Shown here: piece by piece, positions 1,932 through 46,370 of the stretch
Layout of the letters: each line of letters begins with the position of its first letter
Numbering within the stretch: position 1 is the stretch's first letter
Notes under the pieces: generated by a model
Told to the model about the DNA's origin: nothing
Database searches by the model: none
Seen by the model: only the letters and a program-made list of their open reading frames with translations
Made by a program: the position numbers and the translations under genes
NCBI GenBank assembly: GCA_947632025.1
Contig: CANRNN010000010.1
Span: 1 to 60,678 of the forward strand
Length of the DNA stretch: 60,678 bases
Origin: an uncultured Clostridia bacterium
GTDB taxonomy: Bacteria; Bacillota; Clostridia; Oscillospirales; Ruminococcaceae
Direction of reading: 5' to 3'

Positions 1932-1985
1932 ATTCTTGTAAGCAAAAACGCTTAAAAAAACAGTTTCAGGAAAGGAAGATATAAA

Positions 1986-2564
1986 ATGAGTATAAATTAT
2001 ATCGAAGAAACATCATCGGGCATGCACACCCTCTCCGTCGAGGCGCTTCTTCTTACACAAAGAAAGATATTCATCGAGGGCGTTATCGACGAAAATACCG
2101 TAAGCGGATTTTCAAGACAGATGATGTATCTCTCACGCTCCGCCGATCCCGTAAATATTTATATCAACAGCCCCGGCGGAAGAATCGACTGCGGACTTGC
2201 CATATATGATATAATTCAGAGCTGCACCTTTTCGGTCAATATGTATTGTATCGCCAACGCGTCCAGTATGGCAGCCCTGCTCTTAGCGTCAGGGAAGAAG
2301 GGACACCGCTTTATCCTGCCCCACGCAAGCGTAATGATACACGAAGCGCTCATGAAAGGCGATATCAGCGGCTCTGCCACGTCTATCAGCCGCCTGTCCG
2401 AGTCGATAGTTCAGGTGCGCGACATTGTAAACGGTATCCTTGCCAAACACACAGGCAAAACGCTTGAAGAGATAAACCGCGCAACGTCGTTTGATAATTC
2501 AATGAACGCAAAACAAGCCATAGAGTTCGGAATTTGCGACGAGATCGCAGACAGCATTTTTTGA
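1986..2564 (+). CDS. ClpP-like serine peptidase
   Basis: 192 residues, the normal size of ClpP. The ClpP/crotonase fold signature is clear: INSPGG (60-65), nucleophile Ser94 in IANASSMAA, His119 in VMIHEA and a candidate Asp170 in TSFDNSM, equivalent to the Ser-His-Asp triad of E. coli ClpP. It is diverged from housekeeping ClpP: Glu-Ala replaces the usual Gln-Pro after the active His, and no long propeptide is seen. GGAAG precedes the ATG. The neighbour is a VirD4/TraG-like ATPase 15 bases downstream, not a Clp ATPase. This is therefore an accessory peptidase rather than the cell's main ClpP; substrates and partner unfoldase are unknown. Confidence 0.85.
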   Translation: MSINYIEETSSGMHTLSVEALLLTQRKIFIEGVIDENTVSGFSRQMMYLSRSADPVNIYINSPGGRIDCGLAIYDIIQSCTFSVNMYCIANASSMAALLLASGKKGHRFILPHASVMIHEALMKGDISGSATSISRLSESIVQVRDIVNGILAKHTGKTLEEINRATSFDNSMNAKQAIEFGICDEIADSIF

Positions 2565-2579
2565 AAGGAGAATCTATAT

Positions 2580-3884
2580 ATGAAAAATAACTTTGACATT
2601 CCCGCCGCTTCTCATATCACTCAAACCCTTTCCCCCGACGAGGAATTTAATAACAGCCGGCTTCTCATCGCCCGTAATTGTTATTACAGCCTTGACGATT
2701 ATGAAACACGCCTTAACAACAACGTCCTTGTCGTAGGCGGCAGCGGCACAGGAAAAACTTCCACGATAGTAATTCCCAATCTCTCTCAGGCAGTCGGAAG
2801 TTACATAATTTCCGACCCCAAGGGAAATCTGCACACAAAATTCTCCCGCCGTCTGAAAAACGCCGGCTATGACGTAATAAACATAAACTTCACTTCTCCC
2901 CAGAATTCCGCTCATTACAACCCGCTTTGCTTTGTAAAGACCACACAGGATATCATAAAAATAGCCGACATCATTGTCAATGAAAAAGCCTCCCAAAACA
3001 GCAGAGCCGACCCCTACTGGGATTCTATGACCACCATTCTGCTCTCGTCTATTATCGGATATATGGTCTACACAAAATACGAACCGTTCAATTTCAGCGG
3101 AATATTGAACCTTGTCCGCGAGGGCGCAAGAGGAGATGACGACGATTTCGGCAGGGATTCCAAATTGTCAAAGCGTTTCGACGCTCTCAAAGCCGAAAAT
3201 CCCAACAATTGGGCAAGCGCCCAGTTTGAAAACGTAAACTGCACTCCGTTCAAGACCTACGACACTATCCGTTCAACGCTCTGCGCTAAATTTTCAAAGT
3301 TTGACACCATCGAGCTGCAAACTATGATGAGCAAAAACGACCTTGACTTCGAGAAGATTTCCCGTCATAAAACAGCCGTTTTTGTCACCGTCAGCGACAC
3401 CGACCGTTCCATGGACGCTCTCGCCAATATTTTCTTTACCCAGACCATGCAGCAGCTCTGCGGCATCGCCGACAAGCAGAAAAACAGCCGCCTTCCTGTT
3501 CCCGTGCGGTTTTTCCTTGACGACTTCGCCACCAATTGCAAAATAGACGAGTTTCCCAGAATGATCTCCACCATTCGTTCCAGAGGTATATCCGTAATGC
3601 TTATGATTCAGGCGGAATCACAGCTTGTTCAGGGATATTCAGCCGACAGCGACACCATAATCGCGAATTGCGATACCTACGTCTACCTCGGCGGCAACGA
3701 CTATAAAACCGCCGAATCCGTCGCCCGCCGCTGCAATAAGCCTATTTCGCAGATATTGTTTATGCCCGTCGGCAGCTGTTGGGTATTCAGACGCGGCAGC
3801 GACCCCGTCAGCACGAGTACGCTTTCGCCCGAACTCTACGCTCCCCGCCTTGACGAAATACGCGACCTCGACCCCTCGCCGTAA
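2580..3884 (+). CDS. VirD4/TraG-like ATPase lacking membrane segments
   Basis: 434 residues. Walker A is GGSGTGKT (53-60), followed by IIPNL-like and SDPKGNLH segments typical of type IV coupling proteins; Walker B is FFLDDFA with Asp314-Asp315; near the C-terminus NCDTYVYLGGND and the TAESVARRC region match the TraG/VirD4 core. Family members normally carry two N-terminal membrane helices; here about 50 soluble residues precede Walker A, so it would be cytosolic. AAAGGAG precedes the ATG and it is co-transcribed with the clpP-like gene. No relaxase, VirB4 or pilus genes are nearby, so a conjugation role is not supported here. A motor feeding the adjacent peptidase is a speculation worth testing. 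Confidence 0.8.
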   Translation: MKNNFDIPAASHITQTLSPDEEFNNSRLLIARNCYYSLDDYETRLNNNVLVVGGSGTGKTSTIVIPNLSQAVGSYIISDPKGNLHTKFSRRLKNAGYDVININFTSPQNSAHYNPLCFVKTTQDIIKIADIIVNEKASQNSRADPYWDSMTTILLSSIIGYMVYTKYEPFNFSGILNLVREGARGDDDDFGRDSKLSKRFDALKAENPNNWASAQFENVNCTPFKTYDTIRSTLCAKFSKFDTIELQTMMSKNDLDFEKISRHKTAVFVTVSDTDRSMDALANIFFTQTMQQLCGIADKQKNSRLPVPVRFFLDDFATNCKIDEFPRMISTIRSRGISVMLMIQAESQLVQGYSADSDTIIANCDTYVYLGGNDYKTAESVARRCNKPISQILFMPVGSCWVFRRGSDPVSTSTLSPELYAPRLDEIRDLDPSP

Positions 3885-38265: not shown

Positions 38266-38267
38266 AA

Positions 38268-38299
38268 TCAAGAATCTTGTACTTTATACAAGAACTTTG
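38268..38299. repeat. palindromic element (TCAAGAATCTTGT) and imperfect copy between murB and rapZ
   Basis: CAAGAATCTTG (38269-38279) is a perfect palindrome starting 3 bases after the murB stop; a degraded copy CAAGAACTTTG follows at 38289-38299. It belongs to the same motif family as the sites in the XRE-ImmA cassette. Confidence 0.6.
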
Positions 38300-38356
38300 A
38301 ATTCAAAATCAATTCAGGGGGCTGACAAAGCTCCTTAGTTTTGTTTGGAGGATATT

Positions 38357-39244: not shown

Positions 39245-40144
39245 ATGTCGTTCTCATCTGAGTTGAAGCAGGAGCTTCTTTCGGTATCGGAGCTTTCAAA
39301 GCTCTCTGACAGCGAAGCATCGGCAATGCTGTACGGAATGTTCTATGCGGGCAGGATCTCCGAAAAAAAGCCCGTTATCCGCACGGAAAGCGAGATCCTC
39401 GTCACAGCCGCAAAGACCCTCCTTGAGCGTGTTTTCCCAAACGAGAGAATTTTCATCAAGAAACTTGTAGGAAATAACGATTCCGTCTACACTCTCGGCG
39501 CTCATTCGCGCGGAGTTTACGAGAAATTCGGGGATTTCACATCTGTATCCGCCTCTGCCGTCCCCGGCTCGGACGAGGTTTCTTCGGCTTTCCTGCGCGG
39601 AATTTTCACCTCCTGCGGAAGTGTCACAGAACCTGTCAAGGAGTACCACCTTGAGTTTACAGTCCCCGAAACCTCACGCGTCCGACCGCTTTTCGAGTTT
39701 ATCGAGGAACACGGTTTCCCCATAAAGGAAACGCGCCGCGGCAGGCAAACGGCGCTCTATTTCAAGGACAGCGAGGTCATCGAGGACTTTTTGACCTATA
39801 TCGGAGCAGGGCATCGTGCCCTTGAAATAATGCAGATAAAAATCGAAAAAGACCTCAGAAACCGAGCGAACCGTGTAGTAAACTGCGACAGCGCCAACCT
39901 TGACAGAACCGTCGCAGCCAGCGAGCGAACGCGGCGCGAAATTGAGTTCCTGCTTGAAAAAACAGGCTTCGAGGGGCTTTCCGACGAGCTTCGCGAAACG
40001 GCGCGGCTCCGCCTTGACAATCCTGAAAGCTCACTTTCCGAGCTTGCGTCAATGCACGTTCCACCCATTTCAAGAAGCGGGCTTAATCACAGATTAAAGA
40101 AACTTGAATTCCTTGCCGAAAAAGCGCGGGCTTCAGAGGAATAA
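39245..40144 (+). CDS. whiA: DNA-binding protein WhiA
   Basis: 299 residues from the ATG at 39245 (CGGAG upstream; MSFSSELKQEL is the family start). The N-terminal LAGLIDADG-homing-endonuclease-like fold (SAFLRGIFTSCGSVTEP) and C-terminal helix-turn-helix (LSELASMHVPPISRSGLNHRLKKL) are both present. WhiA is a conserved Gram-positive DNA-binding protein linked to cell division. It ends the hprK-to-whiA block. Confidence 0.96.
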   Translation: MSFSSELKQELLSVSELSKLSDSEASAMLYGMFYAGRISEKKPVIRTESEILVTAAKTLLERVFPNERIFIKKLVGNNDSVYTLGAHSRGVYEKFGDFTSVSASAVPGSDEVSSAFLRGIFTSCGSVTEPVKEYHLEFTVPETSRVRPLFEFIEEHGFPIKETRRGRQTALYFKDSEVIEDFLTYIGAGHRALEIMQIKIEKDLRNRANRVVNCDSANLDRTVAASERTRREIEFLLEKTGFEGLSDELRETARLRLDNPESSLSELASMHVPPISRSGLNHRLKKLEFLAEKARASEE

Positions 40145-40868: not shown

Positions 40869-40890
40869 AGTACAAGAAATTTGAATAAAC

Positions 40891-40905
40891 TACAAGATTC
40901 TTGTA
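40891..40905. repeat. palindromic element TACAAGATTCTTGTA upstream of azlD
   Basis: Perfect 15-bp palindrome between azlC and azlD, 8 bases before the azlD ribosome site. A degraded copy TACAAGAAATTTG lies just upstream at 40871-40883. Confidence 0.75.
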
Positions 40906-42322: not shown

Positions 42323-42351
42323 TTGACAGTACAAGTTTCTTGTGTTATAAT
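42323..42351 (+). promoter_or_regulatory. promoter of the XRE-ImmA cassette with palindromic operator in its spacer
   Basis: TTGACA (42323-42328), 17 bp, TATAAT (42346-42351). The palindrome ACAAGTTTCTTGT (42331-42343) lies wholly between the two boxes, an ideal place for a repressor to block RNA polymerase. Confidence 0.85.
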
Positions 42352-42387
42352 TCATAATAGAATATGAAAATGAACGGAGATGGTTTT

Positions 42388-42801
42388 ATGAAAAGTTGTA
42401 TTTCCGCGCTTGAAATGGCTCGAAGCGCGGAGCTGACAATAAGAGCAGAGCTTGACCATATCGAGGAAATGCGCAGCATTGCCACTCAAACTAAGTACGC
42501 GAATAATGATTATTCGGCTGCCGTTATCAAGAAACTTGAACTTCTGGAAAGGGAACTCAATACTTCGATCGACATAGCCGTCGACCGAAAGCGTGAAGCG
42601 CTTGAGGTCATAAGCGGCTTGGACGAAATGCAAAGATTGATTCTGTACAGATACTATATTTTGGGCGAGGAGTGGGAAACCGTGGCAGATAAGGTGTATG
42701 TCAGCCTCAGGCAGGTCTACAATATCCGCAAAAAGGCGTTGAACGAATTAAAATTGAAATACGAAGAAGTACAAGATTCTTGTATTAAGGAGGCAATATG
42801 A
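42388..42801 (+). CDS. phage-type sigma-70 region-4-like regulatory protein
   Basis: 137 residues from the ATG at 42388 (GGAG 8 bases upstream; an ATG at 42364 is only a few bases after the transcription start). The N-terminal two thirds is helical. The C-terminal segment ILYRYYILGEEWETVADKVY and SLRQVYNIRKKALNEL is a sigma-region-4/RinA-like helix-turn-helix as found in phage late-gene activators and DUF1492 proteins. It overlaps the XRE gene by 4 bases. A phage-derived regulator is inferred; its target is unknown. Confidence 0.7.
   Translation: MKSCISALEMARSAELTIRAELDHIEEMRSIATQTKYANNDYSAAVIKKLELLERELNTSIDIAVDRKREALEVISGLDEMQRLILYRYYILGEEWETVADKVYVSLRQVYNIRKKALNELKLKYEEVQDSCIKEAI
42770..42784. 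repeat. palindromic element TACAAGATTCTTGTA before the XRE gene
   Basis: Perfect 15-bp palindrome inside the 3' end of the region-4-like gene, ending 2 bases before the AAGGAGG ribosome site of the XRE gene. Confidence 0.75.
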
Positions 42802-43220
42802 AAATCGGTGCTAACATCAAAAAGTTAAGGATCCGCGCAGGCTTGACGCAGCAGCAGCTCGCAAGGAAAATCGAGGTCACTCCCTCCGCGGTCTGCAATT
42901 ACGAAACGGATATCAGCTTTCCGAAGTCGGAAATTTTGTACAAGATCTTTTATGCTCTAAGAACGTCCCCCAACGAGCTTTTCGGTTACTCGCCTATGGA
43001 GAGCGAAGAAGTCCGCCGTCATATGGAAAAATTCAAGAAACTTGATGAAATCGGACGCGAAAATGTCGATAGATTTACAGATTCCGAGCTTGAACGCAAA
43101 GAGGGAATCGCCGTCAGGATCGCTGCCAGAAACGGCGATTCCGACTCGGAGATACAGATCAAAAAGCAGTCCGATAAGCAAATTTCCAACCTCCCCGATT
43201 ATAACGGAGGAAGAAAATGA
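42798..43220 (+). CDS. XRE-family repressor (ImmR-like)
   Basis: 140 residues. The helix-turn-helix spans about residues 5-60 (LRIRAGLTQQQLARKIEVTP, then SAVCNYETDISFPKSEIL). The C-terminal part is acidic/polar and predicted flexible, as in repressors cleaved by ImmA-type peptidases. It overlaps its neighbours by 4 bases on each side (coupled translation). The candidate operator is the palindrome in the cassette promoter. Confidence 0.93.
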   Translation: MKIGANIKKLRIRAGLTQQQLARKIEVTPSAVCNYETDISFPKSEILYKIFYALRTSPNELFGYSPMESEEVRRHMEKFKKLDEIGRENVDRFTDSELERKEGIAVRIAARNGDSDSEIQIKKQSDKQISNLPDYNGGRK

Positions 43221-43759
43221 CCCCCTTGGAGGTGTATGAAAAGGCAGGCGTAGACAGCCTGCCCGTCGACCCGATCTCCGCCGCGAATGCTCTCGGAATT
43301 AAAGTTATTTCTTATTCAAGTTTCTTGAATATTGCCGACGTCGATATTGAAAACTTGTATAAGAAAAGCCGGGAGGGATTTTCGTTCAAATATGGTGAAC
43401 AGTATTGCATCGTGGTAAACGAAAAATCCTGCGGTGAAAAGCGTCGGCGTTTCACAATTGCCCACGAGCTGGGGCATATCGTTCTCGGTCATTTGGAACT
43501 CCCCGAAATAACCAAAAAATGCGAGAATGAAGCCAATTTCTTTGCTTCGGAATTCCTTGCGCCGCCTGCTGTTCTGGAAGCCTGCGGTGTTAATTCCGTT
43601 GCGGAAATTTCAAAAATCTGCGGAATTTCAGCAGGCTGCGCTGAAATTGTATTTTCAAATCTGTACAAAAACTGTAATAGCGAATACAAGAATCTTGTAA
43701 AAAATCACTTCTCAGACTACATATTATTATATAATTCCGCAAAACAATATATAGTCTGA
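43217..43759 (+). CDS. ImmA/IrrE-family metallopeptidase
   Basis: 180 residues. Zinc motif HELGH (83-87) in FTIAHELGHIVLGH, with the following NEANFFASEFLAPP helix supplying the third ligand Glu: standard for the family. Relatives (ImmA, IrrE/PprI) cleave a partner XRE repressor in response to DNA damage or another signal. The partner is the overlapping gene upstream. Two of the local palindromes fall inside this coding region. Confidence 0.94.
   Translation: MTPLEVYEKAGVDSLPVDPISAANALGIKVISYSSFLNIADVDIENLYKKSREGFSFKYGEQYCIVVNEKSCGEKRRRFTIAHELGHIVLGHLELPEITKKCENEANFFASEFLAPPAVLEACGVNSVAEISKICGISAGCAEIVFSNLYKNCNSEYKNLVKNHFSDYILLYNSAKQYIV
43315..43329. repeat. palindromic element TTCAAGTTTCTTGAA inside the immA-like gene
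   Basis: Arms TTCAAG and CTTGAA pair perfectly across TTT; it is the same core as the site in the cassette promoter. Confidence 0.6.
43685..43699. repeat. palindromic element TACAAGAATCTTGTA at the 3' end of the immA-like gene
   Basis: Perfect 15-bp palindrome, 60 bases before the stop codon and about 90 bases before the metY promoter. Confidence 0.75.
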
Positions 43760-46233: not shown

Positions 46234-46335
46234 AAAAATCACCTCGTAAAAACGTATTTATTATTATCGTTTTTCGATAACAAAAAAACCTCAAAAAATC
46301 TTGAATTTGGCTCTATTAAAAGAAAAGCTGCAACA

Positions 46336-46348
46336 TCAAGAATCTTGA
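46336..46348. repeat. palindromic element TCAAGAATCTTGA between aguA and aguB
   Basis: Perfect 13-bp palindrome with the same core as the XRE-ImmA cassette sites, in the gap between aguA stop and aguB start. Confidence 0.65.
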
Positions 46349-46370
46349 ATTGTAATAAATTTCATAATTG

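Follow-up and report, generated by a model that had tools for sequence, protein, structure and literature searches.

The DNA analysed here (henceforth the window) is a stretch of 60,678 nucleotides from contig CANRNN010000010.1 (assembly GCA_947632025.1) of an uncultured clostridial bacterium of the family Ruminococcaceae. It contains a cassette of three forward-strand genes, together with short palindromes lying in the cassette promoter, inside its genes and at or within neighbouring genes, as follows.

38267..38301, no strand: tandem pair of palindromes, 20 bp apart, second core with one mismatch, between the murB and rapZ homologues
39456..39468, no strand: coding-region palindrome TCAAGAAACTTGT in a neighbouring gene
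40871..40905, no strand: tandem pair of palindromes, 20 bp apart, first core with one mismatch, between azlC and azlD
42323..42351, + strand: consensus promoter of the cassette, TTGACA-17-TATAAT (12/12 hexamer matches)
42331..42343, no strand: operator-like palindrome ACAAGTTTCTTGT in the promoter spacer, conserved in the promoters of relatives
42364..42801, + strand: sigma-region-4-like gene (helical hairpin and region-4 HTH), start set at the first in-frame ATG
42527..42539, no strand: coding-region palindrome TCAAGAAACTTGA in the first gene (synonymous permutation)
42770..42784, no strand: palindrome TACAAGATTCTTGTA directly ahead of the XRE ribosome site (relatives G009 and G025 also have an exact core at this offset)
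42798..43220, + strand: XRE repressor gene (HTH_3 match, alignment, AlphaFold2)
43033..43045, no strand: coding-region palindrome TCAAGAAACTTGA in the XRE gene (core in homologous codons of G009 and G025)
43217..43759, + strand: ImmA/IrrE-type metallopeptidase gene (HELGH and invariant Glu103, Peptidase_M78, PADLOC capP model)
43315..43329, no strand: coding-region palindrome TTCAAGTTTCTTGAA in the peptidase gene
43685..43699, no strand: coding-region palindrome TACAAGAATCTTGTA close to the 3' end of the peptidase gene
46335..46349, no strand: single palindrome between the agmatine deiminase and N-carbamoylputrescine amidase genes

The preliminary description of this DNA, made without database searches, had taken the three genes to be translationally coupled and to code for a sigma-region-4-like protein, an XRE repressor and an ImmA peptidase. 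It had also described a perfect promoter with a palindrome in its spacer and near-identical copies at 42770-42784, 43315-43329 and 43685-43699. All of these points held up. Consecutive genes overlap in an ATGA (42798-42801 and 43217-43220), and the three products matched Sigma70_r4 (E=2.9e-4, under the Pfam cut-off), HTH_3 (E=6.9e-10) and Peptidase_M78 (E=7.3e-14), respectively. Profile and structure matches also support reading the last two as XRE and ImmA partners of the ImmR or CapH/CapP type. The hexamers TTGACA (at 42323) and TATAAT (at 42346) enclose 17 nt that hold ACAAGTTTCTTGT, and the three further copies are present at the positions given.

Judging from the ribosome site and the starts in relatives, the sigma-like gene more probably begins with the ATG at 42388. 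Its product resembles phage regulators of the ArpU and phrog_36 types, with a profile match to phrog_36 (transcription regulator) at E=1.5e-14 and a match to ArpU TIGR01637 below the cut-off; unlike these, it is encoded in one operon with XRE and ImmA genes and, in the window, not among phage genes. The AlphaFold2 model is a long helical hairpin followed by a region-4-like HTH. Foldseek E-values for this protein were all above 0.05, although several structures of sigma region 4 could be superposed on its C-terminal domain at 1.2–1.4 Å. In the model of the XRE protein, an HTH (residues 3-61) and two further helices (70-101) precede a low-confidence tail (102-140) that is probably disordered. 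Within this tail, Ala-Ala-Arg at 109-111 is invariant in all 21 aligned rows. Position 33, in the recognition helix, is Cys in this species versus Gly in the other 20 rows. The peptidase (180 aa) matches CapP and, weakly, IrrE; its HExxH motif, Glu103, Cys72 and Cys135 are invariant across 20 aligned rows, and the two cysteines, invariant in addition to the catalytic residues, could have a redox or metal role. The peptidase of this species also sits on a very long branch of the tree (1.28 versus a median of 0.31), which indicates that the cassette changed fast in this species.

The Ala-Ala-Arg tail was also sought beyond the genus. Of 160 ImmA loci, 91 had a close upstream ORF (XRE identity unchecked), and 18 of these 91 hold the pattern, as do 25 of 1249 control ORFs. 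The holders are all 13 genus ORFs so found plus L120, L122, L123, L222 and L286; the instance in L286 looks like chance, and the tails of L120 and L222 are the same. A universal mark of ImmA partners was thus rejected, most upstream ORFs outside these Clostridia being without the pattern (a point that also weighs against the main reading given below), and the 18/91 distribution makes the tail a clostridial feature at most. Four of the holders (L120, L122, L123 and L222) are clostridial ORFs beside ImmA in which the N-terminal regions differ and the tail has Ala-Ala-Arg-Gly-Gly in common.

A relative of the peptidase (best E about 1e-26 or lower) was found in 31 of 36 same-genus genomes, the five with no match being 69, 98, 75, 76 and 80% complete. 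The 98%-complete one (G014) also has no exact promoter string, a possible cassette loss that counts against the main reading given below. Among 24 genomes from other families of the order, six gave weak peptidase matches only (E 1e-9 to 7e-4). No peptidase in the genomes compared came closer to that of this species than about 58% identity. The XRE gene is present in all 29 of the relatives' loci and the sigma-like gene in 28 (one partial). In the window the neighbours of the cassette are housekeeping genes. As there, an FMN-reductase gene, the RapZ/MurB block or a sulfhydrylase/agmatine block flanks the cassette in the four relatives whose neighbourhoods were covered (L103, L104, L108 and L110; several flanking genes named by eye). 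Because these flanking genes are common to the window and the four relatives, the locus has probably been inherited vertically. No phage gene was recognised near the cassette in the window, the neighbours in L103, L104 and L110 look housekeeping (partly by eye), and the window does not present the setting of mobile element control or of prophage immunity. Nor were CBASS genes recognised among the window neighbours (PADLOC covered the three cassette proteins). In L108 (G032), a phage terminase large-subunit gene (1969-3195) is found some 5 kb upstream of the cassette, outside the flank held in common, so that the locus may have had a mobile past.

For the promoter, we compared 28 upstream regions, i.e. 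those of this genome and 27 same-genus relatives (L056 and L061, in which the first gene is incomplete, were left out of the 29 loci). In every one of the 28, a promoter matches the consensus hexamers at 11 or 12 of the 12 positions, with a spacer of 17-18 nt. The spacer holds an exact ACAAGNNNCTTGT in 16 of them and ACAA-N5-TTGT, with three variable central bases, in 24; its absence from the other four counts against the main reading. The right half of the palindrome may partly double as an extended -10. The full string ACAAGNNNCTTGTGNTATAAT, with zero mismatches, occurs exactly once in each of 19 of the 43 genus genomes and twice in none. In 16 of the 19 it is at the located cassette (the other three, G062, G063 and G066, fall outside the cassette survey). 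As the exact promoter form, where found, is a single copy per genome, autoregulation seems to be the common state. A second promoter of the same type was rejected in view of the zero second exact copies in 43 genomes; copies with one mismatch lie away from the located cassette in G032 and G010, and one more, not located, is present in G064. ACAAGNNNCTTGTG alone is near background in most of the 43 genomes. Given its conservation across the genus, the spacer palindrome is the probable operator of an ImmR/CapH-like switch. Five exact motif strings had no match in the literature searched (the text of mainly open papers), and a term search of the main text of a paper on the palindromes of XRE regulators (PMC12565409) gave neither ACAAG nor CTTGT. 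The literature search on the cassette likewise gave nothing relevant.

Beyond the copies in the preliminary description, exact CAAGNNNCTTG cores occur in the cassette at 42528 and 43034 and nearby at 38269, 39457, 40893 and 46337, and one-mismatch cores at 38289 and 40873 each lie 20 bp from an exact one. In all, there are 12 CAAGNNNCTTG cores in the window (10 of which fall between 38269 and 46337), while 100 sequences drawn from a third-order Markov model of the window had a mean of 1.31 and a maximum of 5. Allowing up to two mismatches, ACAAGAWTCTTGT has 8 matches in the window versus 1.39 expected, a number that none of 100 shuffles reached. Five exact cores lie inside the three cassette genes, where 2000 permutations of synonymous codons gave 0.22 on average. 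Four coding cores each were found in G009 and G025 (permutation means 0.50 and 0.43), two results that are not independent since these are close kin. Eight further cassettes put to the same permutation test had no coding cores, and exact cores past the start of the first gene are present in only three of 28 loci, i.e. in this species, G009 and G025. The pre-XRE and XRE sites are at homologous places in the three species; those in the peptidase gene are shifted by several codons, as in binding-site turnover. In the tree, this species falls together with G036, G009 and G025 (support 85/86, in an open fork). With this support, the open fork and the very long branch of this species, a shared origin of the coding sites is unsure.

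A random spread of the motif through the genome had been named in advance as refuting the preliminary description, and a genome scan gave a different picture: CAAGWWWCTTG has 34 copies, of which 10 are clustered in 8.1 kb around the cassette (binomial P about 3e-17, the interval having been picked post hoc). The reversed control has 2 copies in this genome. In 42 other genus genomes the motif has 3 to 19 copies (mean 8.4) and the reversed control 0 to 22 (mean 4.4), several relatives showing some excess. As the reversed control of this genome is low, the fair comparison is that of 34 with the genus mean of 8.4 and maximum of 19. Many of the other sites among the 34, single and coding, may be chance occurrences; a single coding core is found, for example, in a polA-like gene (named by eye). 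A tandem half-site, CTTG-N-CAAG, was slightly over-represented in this genome (strand counts of 20 and 23 versus 8 and 15) and was dropped, the other seven genomes giving no clear excess. In G036, the 16-mer CTTGAAATACATCAAG recurs, often near contig ends, and is likely the end of a repeated element.

Outside the cassette, tandem copies stand at six junctions: murB-rapZ, azlC-azlD, acpS to an EF-G-like gene (acpS by eye), an unnamed ORF to NAD synthase, trpG-trpD (by eye) and the convergent gap between a DUF218 and a Mur-ligase gene. Single copies are found at three further junctions. Across these nine junctions, with one mismatch allowed in the eight fixed bases, 7 of 10 neighbour spacings are 20 bp, the others being 19, 36 and 45 (pairs within coding sequence, at C3 59661/59685, 24 bp, and C1 402024/402075, 51 bp, were left out of the count). 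Were spacings uniform over 12-50 bp, at least seven equal ones would have P of about 3e-8, a test chosen post hoc. With 155 CAAGNNNCTTG sites placed at random, one would expect some 0.2 pairs at 20 bp or less and 0.5 at 50 bp or less. The linkers are unlike one another and for the most part AT-rich; the arrays therefore do not resemble duplicates of a single element. A phasing of 20 bp would put neighbouring dimers nearly on one helix face and therefore suggests cooperation. Most arrays are at gene 3' ends or at junctions without a convincing promoter, and one is between convergent genes (the ORF calls are mechanical, from the first ATG/GTG/TTG, and intergenic or coding labels may be off by tens of bases); for this reason simple promoter repression fails to explain them. 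None of the genes directly after tandem arrays was recognised as a repair gene. Conservation was checked at one junction, aguA-aguB: in L103 (G009) it has no core with up to one mismatch, and in L110 (G036), in which another gene lies between aguA and aguB, there is no exact core.

Our main reading, which we hold at a probability of about 0.6, is that of a chromosomal, autoregulated repressor of ImmR/ImmA- or CapH/CapP-like type, relieved by proteolysis, with an operator that has given rise, in this lineage, to a local cluster and to a few phased arrays. An XRE dimer on ACAAGNNNCTTGT, between the -35 and -10 of its own promoter, would block polymerase and shut off the three-gene operon. By analogy with ImmA, IrrE and CapP, the inducing signal would probably be ssDNA or RecA after DNA damage, and we expect cleavage of the XRE tail in response: the ImmA-like peptidase would cut the flexible tail of the repressor, probably near the invariant Ala-Ala-Arg. 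Repression would then fall, releasing a burst of the sigma-region-4-like protein as the effector, and fresh repressor and protease, made together, would reset the switch. The extra operators within the cassette of this species and of G009/G025 could keep the repressor near the promoter through cooperation, looping or a roadblock. Through the phased tandem operators elsewhere in this species, the same repressor would also govern a few more gene junctions.

The most familiar examples of protease-relieved XRE repressors come from mobile elements, CBASS islands and Deinococcus. The likeness to ImmR/ImmA of ICEBs1 and its kin lies in an XRE repressor gene adjoining the gene of an M78 peptidase with HEXXH, and in the HTH itself (ImmR 7t8i, E=3.6e-8 by profile; 1.0 Å over 61 columns); unlike there, the neighbours in the window are housekeeping genes rather than a mobile element, a sigma-region-4-like gene comes first, and sites are also found inside genes and in arrays. 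Many Cro/C1-type proteins match the XRE HTH, including P22 c2, ICEBs1 ImmR and CapH. The best by sequence are a designed protein and P22 c2 and the best by fold a C. difficile transposon-related protein and ClgR, in neither case ImmR, which counts against the main reading. As for CapH/CapP of CBASS, the peptidase matches the PADLOC capP model (E=6.9e-15, RmrA models close behind), CapP is its best PDB profile match (E=6.8e-5) and the XRE protein matches capH (E=8.5e-8, RmrA scoring better), but here the locus is genus-wide, with no CBASS gene among the identified neighbours. ImmR/ImmA modules are described as responding to DNA damage (PMC10233336). In the accounts of Deinococcus DdrO/IrrE (PprI), a protease-relieved XRE repressor likewise has several palindromic targets (PMC10904395, PMC5552922): the cut falls in a loop of the DdrO C-terminal domain, and ssDNA activates the protease, as it does CapP (PMC10904395). 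Its RDRM is given as a 17-bp palindrome upstream of about 20 genes (PMC5552922). Our site differs at 13 bp (a comparison by length only), as does the single exact promoter copy per genome where found. PprI is also reported to carry a GAF-like domain (PMC10904395), which the 180-aa peptidase does not have, profile searches giving only weak peptidase-family matches besides M78. The distinguishing feature here is the lineage-specific multiplication of sites around a probable switch of an otherwise known type.

Several other explanations share part of this evidence. The palindrome in the promoter could be the XRE operator and the phased arrays belong to another regulator that shares the core by chance. 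The outer base of array sites often gives TCAAG...CTTGA, which most promoter palindromes do not have, the one junction compared in relatives (aguA-aguB in L103 and L110) has no exact core there, and contig C9 carries a second XRE gene. However, the recognition helix of that second protein differs, 10 of the 34 sites surround the cassette with both outer-base forms among them, and Cys33, a change in the recognition helix of the cassette XRE, may account for the looser outer base of the sites in this species. A separate regulator for the arrays is therefore, in our estimation, a minority possibility, of some weight. It is decidedly less probable that the sigma-region-4-like protein, rather than XRE, binds the palindrome and autoregulates the operon. 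Its gene does come first and is found in all but one of the 29 relatives' loci, and the C-terminal domain of the protein is similar in structure to sigma region 4, but region 4 of sigma factors binds -35 hexamers and not 13-bp palindromes in the spacer, and a palindrome filling a spacer of 17-18 bp fits a repressor dimer of the Cro/C1 type.

That the coding-region sites are functionless by-products of codon use (e.g. for Lys-Lys-Leu-Asp-Glu) would suit the conserved residues that some of them encode and the 25 of 28 loci that have no exact core inside cassette genes. We give this little credence: 0/2000 synonymous permutations reached the observed number in this genome, in G009 or in G025 (the latter two close kin), and sites are found again at the pre-XRE and XRE positions and, in the peptidase gene, close to one another. 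Most improbable, we believe, are RNA hairpins at gene junctions, acting as 3'-end protection or processing signals. The position of most tandem sites, at gene junctions or 3' ends, would suit this, as would the short stem into which each palindrome could fold, but four fixed pairs around a three-base loop make a weak stem (judged from sequence), the outer flanks of 27 hand-picked sites do not covary (15/27 complementary versus 13.4 expected), and an exact phasing of 20 bp suits a protein on DNA.

Returning to the protease-relieved XRE repressor, the cassette looks like a chromosomal switch of a whole genus of gut Clostridia, whose output is likely to be the sigma-like protein and whose probable operator could be read by footprinting alone. 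Since the palindrome is at the promoter in most relatives versus in a cluster and arrays in one species, the emergence of a regulon around a repressor under protease control can be tested directly. More speculatively, and we think this rather unlikely, XRE in this species would serve as a protease-releasable roadblock and form a local DNA-bound cluster that stalls transcription between genes, its dimers sitting on one face of the DNA at the 20-bp-phased junction sites and within its own genes. If so, a single proteolytic signal would simultaneously open several unrelated operons in their downstream parts, and the regulon would have arisen by the birth of sites at junctions rather than at promoters.

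Three palindrome copies also precede a gene on contig C1 of this genome (G000; L017:5060-7594) that encodes an 844-aa protein in which an EF-G-like translational GTPase carries a fused NYN_YacP domain at its C terminus.
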